Notes under the pieces: generated by a model
Told to the model about the DNA's origin: nothing
Database searches by the model: none
What the model saw: the letters and a program-made list of their open reading frames with translations, nothing else
Position numbers and translations under genes: made by a program
NCBI GenBank assembly: GCA_025201365.1
Contig: JAIXMF010000058.1
Coordinates: 1 to 51,236, forward strand
Direction: 5' to 3'
Source of the DNA: Syncephalis plumigaleata
Lineage: Eukaryota; Zoopagomycota; Zoopagomycetes; Zoopagales; Piptocephalidaceae
DNA: 51,236 nt
In this document: piece after piece, positions 47,100 to 51,236 of the stretch
How the letters are laid out: each line of letters starts with the position of its first letter
How positions within the stretch are numbered: position 1 is the first letter of the stretch

Positions 47100-49023
47100 T
47101 TACTTTTTTTCTACCCTCTCTTTATGCCCTTTAGATTTAATAGCCAATTCAATATACACATCCTTATTATTGTTATCATTAGTAAAATGATCAGAGTAGC
47201 ACATAGATTTATTCAATAAATGGTTGATATTTATGTAATAGACCGCGAATGATCTTGTAGATATATTTCTTGATCCAAGGAATAATGACTTGAATGGCAT
47301 GGATACTAAAGGGACCTGCACCAATCCATTCTTGACTTGAATACCTATAATATCTACTTGATGATGTCCTTGTCTTGTTCTGTAGTCATAATGGATTAGT
47401 ATGGGCATGATTATTATGAATTATTACTTACTGCTTAAAGCTATCATTCCATTGATGCGAATTTTATCGCAGTTAGTATAACATTTATTGCAGTCAGAAT
47501 GATGACTTACAAGCTGTTAGACGGAAACATACGTGGATCATGAGCCATAATGCGATTAGTACATCCATGCATTGAGGTCAGAAGCATCAACTTACACCCT
47601 ATCGTATGCAAACATACGTGGATCGTGTGTTTCATAGTGTGATTAGTACGTTCATTCATTATGATCGGGAATAAAAACTTACAGGCTGACATGCAAGAAG
47701 TGCGTGGATAATGAGCCATAGTGTGGTTAGTACATTCATAGGTTATAGCCAGGTAGTAACTTACAGGCTGGCATACAGGAGTATACGTGGATCGTGTGCC
47801 ATACTGTATTTAGTACCTCATTCATTCCAGCTAGAATGATAACTTACGGTCTATCGTACAAAAACATACGTGGATCGTATGCCATAGCGTGATTAGTATA
47901 CCATAGTTATAACCGGGATGGCCACTTACCATCTATCATACACAAGCATACGTATGGGCCATACGTCGTATTGTAGTTAGCATATCACTCATTGCAGCCA
48001 GGTGGTAACTTACTTGCTATCGTCCAGGAGCATACGTGGATGATGTGCCAGATCATGGTTAGTACCTCATAGGTTACGATCAGAATAATTACTTACAACC
48101 TATCATACAGGAGCGTATGTGGATCATGAGCCATAGCGTGATTAGTGTGACATTTATTATAATCATAATGGTAACTTACGTCCTATCGTACGAAAACACG
48201 TAGTGATTATGAATCATAATGTGATTAGTACATCCATGCGTTACGGTCAGGATAGTAACTTACACCCTATCATACGTAAATGAATGCGAATCGTGTGTCA
48301 TAGGGTGATTAGTACACGTATAGATTGCAATCAGAATGGTAACTCACACCCTAGCATACGGGAGCGTATGTAAATAATGAGCCATAGTGTAATTAGTGTG
48401 GCATCAATTACGGCCAGAATGATAACTTACAAGCTGTCATGCAGGAACATATGTGGATCATGTGCCACAATAAAGTTAGTACCACGTTCATTGCAGCTAG
48501 AATGGTAACTTACAGCCTGTAATAAAAAATATACGTGGATTTTGTGCCGTAGCGTGATTAGCCTATCCATGCATTAAGAGTAGACGATAACTTACACCCT
48601 ACAATAAGAAACATACGTGAATCGTGTGCCACGTTATAATTAGCAGATCATAATAACAATAACAGCGTTAACTTACAAGTACTTGTAAGTGACATCACAC
48701 ATGATTTTGGTTTACACTACGATTAGCATAGTACTTGTTATGGTCAATAGGATAACTTACGAGGTTGTGCTAACAATTTGATAGGTAGGATAAACATTAT
48801 GATGTGATTAGCGTATCAAAACAATCATTTAATACACATGAACTTACGTTCTATCGGTAATCATCGATGGACAATGAAACAATAGGCTATGATTAGTACA
48901 TCAATTGATAGGGTCATGGCCAGACATACCACGACGAATCAATGTGGGCTTGGCCTCAACGGCGACCAGACTGGCGAGAGCGACAATGGCGACGGCAATA
49001 GCGATAACGGCAGAGAACTTCAT
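47100..49023 (-). CDS. Micro-exon gene: secreted peptide precursor built from about 18 tiny exons
   Basis: Exon 1 (49023-48930) encodes 31 residues: a signal peptide (MKFSAVIAIAVAIVALASLV, ending VEA) then KPTLIRR, and ends in phase 1 at a GTATGT donor. Downstream are exons bounded by AG and GTAAGT: 48850-48848 (AAC), 48769-48761 (nine bases), 48681-48677 (TACTT), then fourteen of exactly 3 bases: GGT, GCT, CTT, GGT, GGT, GAC, GTT, CAA, ATG, ACC, CCT, CCT, GGT, CTT (48598 down to 47511), then one near 47432 (CA or CTTTAAGCA). The last exon starts at 47379. Joined, the frame stays open: EPQPLLGALGGDVQMTPPGL follows the dibasic site. With CA as exon 18 the last exon reads 93 residues to a stop at 47100; with CTTTAAGCA a TAA ends it. 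Each intron has its own branch site and uses the first AG far enough beyond it. Function unknown; secretion plus RR suggest a Kex2-processed peptide. Expression was not tested. Confidence 0.72.
47432..48850 (-). repeat. Tandem array of about 83-bp intron-plus-micro-exon units
   Basis: Eighteen units with spacing mostly 82-84 (extremes 73 and 88). Reading the minus strand, each unit runs GTAAGTTA, a C/T-rich stretch with CATTCTG, AATG-ATG, branch TACTAAC/TACTAAT/GCTAAT followed by CAC-CTATGGC, CA-GATCCACGTATG, a T/C-rich bit, GTATGATAG or similar, then usually 3 variable bases. Flanks are similar between units while the triplet changes. The units clearly arose by tandem duplication. Edge units (48769, 48681, 47440) have longer or different exons and are more diverged. 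Confidence 0.9.
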
Positions 49024-49897
49024 GTTGATGTTGGCCTAGTGGAATGGATAGGCAGATAAGCTGACTATAACGAGAGTAGAAAGTGGTGAGAGTAGAGTAG
49101 AACGAGGATATAGGGCAGTGGTATATACGAGTAGAAGCAAATAGTAGTAGCTAGAGTAGAATAGAATAGAAGAGCGAGTATGAAAATGACAAGTCGAGTA
49201 TGTCAAAAAGTGCTCGATTTATAGCCGAGATGATGATGATGATGATGGCGGATATTCCTAGTGAACATAATATGATGATTATAGACCACAGTCAGACTAT
49301 CTTCATACGATACTCTCCTCTGTACATGGATTGTACTCGGAATGATGGAGCATCTATCGGACTGTACCTTTACCATGCCATCCATGTGGATATTGACCAG
49401 TAGCTTTGCTACATGAATGATGGCGCAATACTGCTTTAACAGGATCATGCAAATTAGGAGTGAATATTGGTATAACTGCATGGTTAATCGATTGTTTGTG
49501 GGTAGTACGCCGAGCAGATTAGTACCAATTAAATGAATGTCTGCCATATCGTGTAACCGCATGGTTTGTCCATTGTCCAATCTATACTCTAGTATTATTT
49601 TGGAATTACTCGAATACTCCACCAATAATGACACGTACACTTGTTACAACCAGCATGACTGGTTATATTCTATTGAAATGATTGTATTGAGCATCATGTA
49701 CATGAGTATAGTTGAATGTAAATCAATGCATAGCATGATGATAACAATGTGTTATTGCAACGTTGAGCTAACTCTGTAGCATTCGATTAATCTCTATTTA
49801 TTATTAAATCCGTAGAATTCACATTTATTCCTCTCGTCATCTAGCTAATCATATAGCGCGCAAAAGTATGATAATAATTATAATGCTATATTCAAGA
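49024..49897. other. Region upstream of the micro-exon gene
   Basis: Contains the promoter of the micro-exon gene (purine-rich AGTAGAGTAGA repeats at 49070-49175), a (GAT)n run at 49229-49248 and the uncertain ORF at 49203-49640. Confidence 0.4.
49203..49640 (-). CDS. Uncertain ORF, weak
   Basis: 145 codons open on minus with a coding-looking start ('SLLVEYSSNSKIILEYRLDNGQTMRLHDM') and a poly-His tail from the (GAT)n repeat. No family recognised, no clear promoter, and it lies between the WD-repeat stop and the micro-exon gene start. The first 45 codons might be an exon of a small gene; the rest looks like noise. Confidence 0.2.
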   Translation of the reverse strand: MYVSLLVEYSSNSKIILEYRLDNGQTMRLHDMADIHLIGTNLLGVLPTNNRLTMQLYQYSLLICMILLKQYCAIIHVAKLLVNIHMDGMVKVQSDRCSIIPSTIHVQRRVSYEDSLTVVYNHHIMFTRNIRHHHHHHLGYKSSTF

Positions 49898-51236
49898 CTA
49901 CAATGTAAAATCCATAAAGTTCATTGACAAGTCGGAACTGATGGAGCCTAGAACCGACTTTGTAGGATGGAATCGCACCTCAATAATACGTTTATCTATA
50001 ACAATAAAGATAGTATCGTTAGTCCACTCGTTTATCTATTCGGTGATCATTATTAAATTGATATTACCATGCGATTGAATAAGTTGACAGGGCGACGATC
50101 GAACATCTTTATACCGGATATCCCTATAAACAACATGCATTACTTGTCATTATCGCATTGTCGATCCTATACCATTTCCACTTACCATATAGATATGTGT
50201 GGCTTATCCTGTTGACCACACGCCACCATATAGCCGTCACAATGCCATGATGGTGCAATGTATCGACTGAGACGCGATTGTTGCGGGAATCCAAATCGAA
50301 GCACCGGATCGTGTGGCGTTCTATGGTCATAGAGTAATAGTTGATCTTGTGTGCCGCTCACTGTGACGAGCAACAAGTGTGGATCAATCGGGTTGCGGTG
50401 AATATGATTAATACGCTCGGTAAGTTTGTTCTGATACACCTCGCGACTCGTTGCCAAATCCCACGCTAATAAACGATTGTCGGCACCGCCCGAGTATAGC
50501 ACATTAAATGAGGACAAGTGTGCTAACGCGTAAATAGACGATGTGTGCCGTTTCGGCAGGTAGTCAACGCTTTTCAAGGTGGCCGGCGTTTGCAAGTTGT
50601 TCGAACGTGTCATATGCCATACAACGATTTGCTTGTCATTACCCGCGGTGGCAAACGAGAATTGCTCCTTATTAGTGCTCAATGGCTCAATAACATTAAT
50701 ACCATTGCTATGTGGGCGATCGTGTAAATGCTGCACTTGCGACATTAACGAATGCTATTTATGAAATAATTAATGATATGAAATAGATCAGAGAGAATAA
50801 TACGTACCCGAGATGAACTAGAAAAGTGAACTAGGGATAATTGACGTGGCACTGGTGAATCGCGTGCAGGTGCACCTACCGCCAAGATATGATCGGTAAT
50901 CCAGCTCATGGTTTCGGGCCATGTCTTTTCTAATTGCGTGTCTCTAATAATATGCTCTAGCCTATGCATAATAAAATCATTAAGCATGACTAATCTACCA
51001 TTGTACTAATTACAATCAACTTACTCTTGATGCCCGTATTTCCAGCAACGTATTTGTCTATAACAACAACAGTTAGCGCTATCCTATTGCTAGTACGTAA
51101 ACACAATTTAATTACCCATCCAATGCACTACATAGTATAATTATTAGTTAATTATTTAGCATTAATTAGTTACATATCAAATTGTACTTACCTTGCAACG
51201 ATTAAATCAATTACTATTCCTTACCCCGTGCATCAG
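49898..51236 (-). CDS. WD-repeat protein, 3' part (5' end beyond the window)
   Basis: Exons on minus with consistent phases: about 51215-51192 (partial), about 51130-51118, about 51062-51025, about 50960-50809, about 50757-50180, then about 50124-50074 and 49999-49898, ending in TAG. The protein reads 'IDLIVASALDGQIRCWKYGHQE', then 'EKTWPETMSWITDHILAVGAP', 'FSFATAGNDKQIVVWHM', 'SSIYALAHLSSFNVLYSGGADNRLLAWDLAT', 'LLLVTVSGTQDQLLLYDHRTPHDP', 'YMVACGQQDKPHISIWDIRYKDV', 'IIEVRFHPTKSVLGSISSDLSMNFMDF'. These are at least five WD repeats (G-G-A-D-N-R-L-L-A-W-D type) of a propeller scaffold. I cannot assign the subfamily. Confidence 0.8.

Follow-up and report, generated by a model that had tools for sequence, protein, structure and literature searches.

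Introduction

Micro-exon genes (MEGs) of schistosomes are described as having 10–20 exons per gene, mostly of 15 bp (6–81 bp in the text of the paper, 3–81 bp in its abstract) and separated by introns of 0.1–5 kb (PMC10526429), and the bicycle genes of aphids as having about 17 exons on average, with small internal exons that are nearly all in phase 2 (PMC9168663). Spliceosomes can include exons of 1–3 nt, as described for an isolated tiny exon of APC11 in Arabidopsis (PMC4674806), and a fungal microexon, single and regulatory, is described in the transcription factor gene Xlr2 of Trichoderma (PMC11121469). Syncephalis is named in the title of a reference in PMC10386755 as a genus of ubiquitous mycoparasites, and S. 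plumigaleata is a mycoparasite of the order Zoopagales. In 51,236 nucleotides of its DNA, the whole stretch that was analysed (hereafter the window), a first-pass annotation had proposed a gene made largely of one-codon exons, and had named schistosome MEGs and aphid bicycle genes as the closest analogies; analogies only they still are. Here, we describe this gene and its relatives in the same genome. It is very probably a functional member of a large codon-per-exon family of Syncephalis, whose one-codon cassettes would encode secreted, fast-evolving peptides, a reading drawn from genomic sequence.

The Gene in the Window

The gene lies on the minus strand, to which all its coordinates refer. 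A TATA-like box (TATAAAT, 49217..49223), read from the sequence, stands about 200 bp upstream of the ATG. Exon 1 (48930..49023; 94 nt) encodes MKFSAVIAIAVAIVALASLVAVEAKPTLIRR, ends with the first base of a further codon, and includes a putative signal peptide, judged by eye, and an Arg-Arg site. Parsed intron signals then delimit 18 internal exons, beginning with AAC in split phase (48848..48850), CACAACCTC (48761..48769) and TACTT (48677..48681), the last of which sets the frame to 0. Fourteen exons of exactly one codon follow: GGT (G, 48596..48598), GCT (A, 48514..48516), CTT (L, 48431..48433), GGT (G, 48348..48350), GGT (G, 48264..48266), GAC (D, 48180..48182), GTT (V, 48097..48099), CAA (Q, 48014..48016), ATG (M, 47930..47932), ACC (T, 47848..47850), CCT (P, 47765..47767), CCT (P, 47683..47685), GGT (G, 47596..47598) and CTT (L, 47511..47513). 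The terminal micro-exon CTTTAAGCA (47432..47440), placed by parsed signals and a frame check, is read CTT TAA GCA and so supplies an in-frame stop, which was absent from the first-pass annotation. The 19 introns (whole span 47380..48929) have GTAAGT-like donors and a TACTAAT-like branch whose A lies 32–44 nt, mostly 41–42, before the acceptor; 18 of them measure 70–84 nt, and the last 52 nt (47431-47380). The parser had called the last acceptor at 47354, and it was moved to CTACAG/AACAAG, that is, to 47380/47379, because the contiguous junction TAAGCR/RACAAGAC at intronless loci places the acceptor there. The last exon (provisionally 47250..47379) is a 3'UTR that is kept family-wide, with a 27-base core, in an alignment of 32 loci.

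The predicted product has 52 amino acids, in a frame that is clean from exon 1 to the TAA, and its predicted mature peptide has 21 residues and no Cys. The row of 18 modules claimed in the first-pass annotation is present, but its donors are not all GTAAGT, since GTGAGT follows the exon at 48350. Likewise, its fourteen three-base exons are indeed whole-codon triplets, but the split-phase AAC is a fifteenth, so that 15 of the 18 internal exons are 3 nt long. Every internal exon is flanked by an AG acceptor and a GTAAGT-like donor. Its phase sum is correct (94 + 3 + 9 + 5 = 111, or 37 codons), and the peptide that it deduced from the triplets, G A L G G D V Q M T P P G L, is the same codon by codon.

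With a triplet module defined as a branch, the first AG, 3 nt and a donor, the minus strand holds 14 modules between 47300 and 49023, whereas 2000 dinucleotide shuffles gave 0.0155 on average and never more than 2. Both strands of the whole window together hold 15, compared with 1.0 on average and at most 5 when the sequence was shuffled 100 times. Chance consensus as the source of the array was dropped on these counts (14 against at most 2). A plain minisatellite was also considered and dropped; Tandem Repeats Finder, run at score 50, gave no entry at the window array.

The window gene has a near-identical copy, L009, on contig C1; in the stretch 48930-49923, which takes in exon 1 and the DNA before it, the upstream region is 97% identical over 900 bp. 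Several other family loci likewise have near-identical copies, some of them on short contigs, and such copies may be two haplotypes in the assembly or recent duplications.

A Large Dispersed Family

The window gene belongs to a large family dispersed through the genome. Exon 1 gave 177 first-look candidates in its own genome and 40 scored matches of 88–99% identity, and a 24-base pattern from it has 85 exact matches (reversed control, 0). A protein search with P0126, which matches the genome over exon 1 only, raises the family size to at least 146 matches, and one with P0122 gave 148; in both searches nearly all matches are confined to exon 1. The 27-base core of the 3'UTR has 130 exact genome matches, and for a 23-base stretch of the terminal array intron the number is 74. 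Upstream regions matched that of the window gene in 39 of 41 cases (blastn), the exceptions being L041 and L047, and in most cases the similarity falls in two blocks inside the final 212 bp. The family N-terminus is hydrophobic by eye and has 18 invariant columns in an alignment of 10 rows, and a Pfam search with 10 family proteins (8 predicted, 2 public) assigned no family, returning two weak single-member matches (E 0.046 and 0.08).

Arrays were parsed in DNA fetched for the window and the other 39 of the 40 scored exon-1 matches, which yielded 41 models for 40 loci (L025_6718 is the cut start of the L014 gene). The parser was a signal-profile Viterbi procedure using donor, branch and acceptor profiles, without a frame rule; its exon cost of 0.06 per nt gives a slight bias to short exons. 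It replaced an earlier version that required a CTAA[CT] branch and lacked GTAGG donors, and thereby produced false introns of about 160 nt. It is weak at rare donors and branches, leaving units unsplit in L012, L016, L023 and L027, and is derailed by inserts in L019 and L047. Viterbi models were cut at 4 kb, which clipped L025 and L043, and both were extended.

Among the 1106 internal exons of these models, near-identical copies included, 940 are exactly 3 nt long, while 22 have 6 nt, 50 have 9 nt and 12 have 15 nt; the modal intron is 80 nt (parser range 40–125 nt). L043 contains 71 introns and at least 67 triplet exons up to the end of the fetched DNA, where its array is still running. Predicted mature peptides range from 13 to more than 70 residues. 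The long inserts in the L019 and L047 arrays are similar, with common stretches such as CATACTGGGAAAAAA, and are perhaps a mobile element.

Array Triplets as Codons

The array triplets behave as codons. A stop triplet occurs once among the 940, against 24 expected from base composition by position or 71 from intron trinucleotides, and this one, a TGA cassette, lies in the poorly parsed locus L015. The terminal TAAGC(R) exon is reached in 34 of the 41 models, and in 30 of these 34 its TAA is in frame with the ATG, where chance would give a third. Of those 30, 21 are clean (L042 and L045 only after the exon-1 donor had been shifted by hand from 133 to 94), and nine have an earlier stop: L010, L026, L031, L036 and L037 terminate one to three codons too soon, while L011, L012, L015 and L028 contain unsplit pieces, L015 having the TGA as well. 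In four of the 41 models, all of which contain a poorly split piece, the TAA is out of frame; seven others never reach the terminal exon, among them L025, which ends in frame at TAA once extended. The triplets of the 21 clean models comprise 481 in phase 0, 41 in phase 1 and none in phase 2; in all 41 models as parsed, the corresponding numbers are 783, 91 and 66. In addition, 13 of 32 non-redundant peptides contain the pattern C-x(4-16)-CC-x(7-14)-C, with one exon per Cys; when codon order was shuffled 2000 times, 1.5 peptides on average, and never more than 7, did so.

Some family loci are clearly broken, as would be expected if the arrays were decayed or non-coding repeats with a splice-like consensus and no protein product. 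The exclusion of stops, the closure of the frame, the ordered cysteines, and codons that are constrained and then diversify (see below) all oppose this explanation, which we regard as extremely improbable.

Codon Choice and Splicing Signals

When a codon ends in TA or CA, the GT of the donor that follows completes a YAG acceptor at the exon edge, while endings in AA or GA give AAG or GAG. Codons of the form NTA or NCA make up 6 of 753 array codons, counted after six near-identical models had been set aside, and 656 of 3701 codons in 11 open reading frames of the window, not all of which are proven genes (p about 3e-48). CAG is absent from the arrays (0/753 against 65/3701), whereas NAA and NGA codons are not depleted (130/753 against 470/3701). 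Acceptor strength decreases in the order YAG > AAG > GAG, and the depletion of YAG-making codons, but not of those making AAG or GAG, fits this order. TAC (0 of 19 Tyr codons) and TTC (2 of 24 Phe codons) are rare in one-codon exons beyond what acceptor avoidance accounts for; TCC and the majority of NCG codons, too, hardly occur in these exons.

Selection and Growth of the Arrays

Cassette codons are constrained between near-identical copies, and change faster than introns between diverged paralogues. In seven near-identical pairs, triplets differ at 1 of 429 positions and intron bodies at 367 of 11,159 (pooled, p 3e-5). In three diverged pairs the relation is reversed, with 48 of 213 against 610 of 5328 (pooled, p 7e-6), although mis-registered units could raise the codon differences here, and the division into seven and three pairs was made after the data had been seen.

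Array introns within one gene have a mean identity of about 0.70. Compared over 65 within-gene pairs, this stands against 0.59 for shuffled sequences, and with the intron ends removed the values are 0.67 and 0.58, so that the general likeness of array introns is modest. Block duplications are a stronger sign of cassette duplication: between units 4–8 and 11–15 of L010, four of five intron pairs are 84–94% identical while codons differ (GGC/GGG, AAC/AGC), and the introns of units 14 and 25 of L020 are identical. Outside the parsed spans, the 39 fetched loci contain 28 triplet modules, of which 27 continue the L019 and L043 arrays; a single module thus lies outside family arrays, in a comparison limited to these loci.

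Intronless Copies

Six loci (L048–L053) have exon 1 and the 3'UTR close together and are intronless, with further codons after exon 1. In L050, L051 and L052, the sequence TAAGCR/RACAAGAC is joined as predicted for removal of the terminal intron, and this junction is contiguous at seven loci in all, these three included. A string of 29 bases, in which the end of exon 1 is followed by six microexons (CTG, TTG, TCGAAC, GCC, GTG, CTC) and one further base, is contiguous at five loci (reversed control, 0); it arises by concatenation in the models of L028, L040, L043 and L046, and is contiguous in none of these four. L049 and L053 read open to a stop, as does a seventh intronless locus, L054, while L048, L050, L051 and L052 are frame-broken or contain a stop. 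The intronless loci may be retrocopies. Downstream of the intronless member in L054 (L054:1206-1301) lies another signal-peptide-like open reading frame (MKFTAIIAITVISIVASLATVDASPTDGRLPI) with a TATA-like sequence of its own, possibly a relative.

These copies bear on two other explanations. According to the first, the main mRNA would join exon 1 to the last exon and yield a short peptide ending in (E/G)QDKDIIK-stop, with the array as a large intron or relic. Exon 1 and the conserved last exon do read open to a conserved TAG, but conservation of the last exon continues past this TAG, stops are excluded from cassettes whose codons are under selection, and the contiguous copies contain additional codons after exon 1 and before the last exon. 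Skipping of the array is therefore very unlikely, and was dropped as the main form because of the conservation beyond the TAG.

According to the second, the order would be reversed, with intronless genes first and introner-like introns then inserted at nearly every codon boundary. Intronless members do exist in the genome, the metagenome-derived P0142 and P0145 are longer proteins, and array introns have some mutual likeness. Against this, triplet modules outside the parsed spans of the 39 fetched loci almost all continue family arrays, and duplication of cassettes is a simpler explanation than one insertion per codon boundary. Codons ending in TA or CA (YA codons) also make up only 10 of 131 in six intronless tails, below the 656 of 3701 in the window frames. 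When the tails are divided, a split made after the counts had been seen, L048, L049, L051 and L053 have 2 of 93, as expected of copies of spliced mRNA, while L050 and L054 use such codons freely (8 of 38). We therefore consider an origin of the introns after the genes quite unlikely.

Public Protein Models and Environmental Relatives

Array DNA was compared with two public proteins, P0122 and P0135. P0135 (BDF22DRAFT_657705) fits the L022 locus. Exact GT/GC-AG alignment found no path between them; with penalised non-canonical junctions allowed, and canonical donors favoured by design, the cheapest spliced alignment with exact spelling has 36 exons and a cost of 37.4. Thirty of these exons equal parsed L022 exons, 28 of them 3 nt long, whereas 20 versions with the 26-residue core shuffled cost 63.9–73.4 and had 6–12 exons in common with the parse. 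The fit requires odd exons, skips the first nine cassettes, leaves out AGA, CCT and one CAA cassette among others, and misses the stop, and public models may for these reasons be imperfect predictions rather than transcripts. P0122 reads GPPPPIHW, which corresponds to the end of exon 1 followed by GTC, CACCC, CCT, CCT, ATC, CAT and TGG in L055, where one CCT unit was read by eye after the parser had failed. Five consecutive 3-nt exons of L055 are read in this way, and one 9-nt exon and one TGC exon are left out. It thus seems that another annotation pipeline arrived at the same exons.

P0122–P0127 had been considered as possible transcript evidence, but P0123 is an intronless copy with a false intron; P0128 and P0133, judged by eye, correspond to L049 and L053, both intronless, with false introns placed in them. 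P0140, P0141, P0144 and P0146 (metagenome/ENA) contain exon 1 followed by read-through into sequence like that of intron 1 (RRGTSGHGHIN and similar), which points to the existence of the gene start in environmental relatives. P0142 and P0145, from metagenome contigs, share the start common to the family. Judging from the public models checked, gene callers miss or garble genes of this kind, which are therefore a blind spot.

The omissions in these models raise the question of combinatorial splicing, in which one array would yield many isoforms and a single gene a peptide library. Most cassettes are whole codons in phase 0 (481 triplets in clean genes), so any subset of them could be skipped without loss of frame, and P0122 does omit a 9-nt exon and a Cys codon, as the P0135 fit omits several cassettes. 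The same omissions may, however, be prediction errors. Moreover, the arrays hold almost no codons that would create a competing YAG acceptor, and near-identical copies hardly differ in their codons, which together suggest selection for accurate inclusion. A library of isoforms is thus unlikely. Inclusion of the first Cys of L055 might be regulated, since P0122 omits its TGC exon, which bears the donor GTAGGT. First-Cys cassettes with this unusual donor occur in several loci, among them L013, L014, L016 and L033.

A Model for Codon-per-Exon Genes

The first-pass reading, which took this to be a real micro-exon gene containing whole-codon exons, an exon for a signal peptide and an Arg-Arg site, and without a known counterpart among fungal genes, is supported by evidence from the genome. 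Comparable arrays, some broken, occur at 40 loci; terminal stops are in frame, selection acts at the level of codons, codon choice avoids acceptors, and contiguous copies show junctions as predicted. The further MKFSAVIA-type exons with arrays of about 83 bp that it forecast occur inside the same genome.

In the model that we prefer, of functional genes encoding peptides through one-codon cassettes, a common TATA-type promoter would drive transcription of a pre-mRNA containing a normal signal-peptide exon, an array of cassettes of about 83 bp, and the conserved 3'UTR. Each cassette would consist of one codon and one short intron. The introns would be removed by the spliceosome through intron definition, probably serially, cassette by cassette, since an exon of 3 nt leaves no room for the machinery of acceptor and donor next to each other. 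The mRNA would encode a prepropeptide with a signal peptide for secretion, an Arg-Arg site for putative dibasic processing, and a mature peptide derived mostly from one residue per exon. Arrays would grow through duplication of cassettes or cassette blocks, gaining whole codons without frameshift, and codons would diversify after duplication, with one subfamily keeping a C-CC-C scaffold. From the mycoparasitic lifestyle and by analogy with other systems, an effector-like role may be expected, in which the secreted peptides would act where the parasite meets its fungal host or its competitors.

We also lean, with less assurance, towards regarding these genes as a new kind, namely a string of one-codon cassettes in which recombination between introns would insert, delete or swap residues in a frame-safe manner, with codons limited by acceptor signals. 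If so, the lexicon of such genes would be restricted to triplets without competing acceptors, and splicing rules would shape genetic vocabulary. Recombination in non-coding DNA would be converted into frame-safe change of single residues, a route to fast peptide evolution and, for a parasite of fungi, an evolvable peptide factory. If the arrays are spliced as predicted, they also bear on the minimum size of exons and on the need for exon definition, and would provide natural substrates for testing serial splicing by intron definition.

Comparison with Known Systems

Among the matches listed in the open-licence PMC literature, neither Syncephalis microexons nor runs of one-codon exons were found, and an earlier report elsewhere is possible; no description of a gene layout with such runs was found for other organisms within the same searched literature. 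If spliced as predicted, dozens of consecutive one-codon exons would be the most extreme exon fragmentation in that literature.

Introners are many similar introns scattered over unrelated genes, and recursive splice sites stand back to back and leave zero-length exons. The Syncephalis arrays resemble the former in having many similar introns and the latter in splice sites placed back to back. Unlike introners, their introns have so far been seen in a single family, where each leaves one codon, and unlike recursive exons (AG/GT, with nothing between), 3 nt remain between acceptor and donor.

The internal exons of bicycle genes are several codons long, whereas those of Syncephalis have one codon. 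Compared by description, they also differ in phase, bicycle internal exons being in phase 2 and Syncephalis triplets mainly in phase 0. What the two have in common, following the account of bicycle genes in PMC9168663, is a large, divergent family of putative effectors that is recognisable by gene structure and has small internal exons, almost all in a single phase. The Xlr2 gene of Trichoderma likewise has a fungal microexon, but a single and regulatory one as described (PMC11121469), and APC11, as described in PMC4674806, is a cell-cycle gene with one isolated tiny exon, in contrast to the long runs of Syncephalis. Schistosoma MEGs, as portrayed in PMC10526429, are similar in having many tiny exons, mostly multiples of three. 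Their products are variable, secreted proteins that begin with a conserved signal peptide, and the Syncephalis genes would likewise encode variable, secreted peptides, with a putative signal peptide. Unlike MEG exons, which by description are mostly of 15 bp, Syncephalis exons are mostly one codon long (12 of 1106 have 15 nt); its introns of about 80 nt contrast with the 0.1–5 kb given for MEGs, and the 10–20 exons given per MEG contrast with at least 67 one-codon exons in a single Syncephalis gene.
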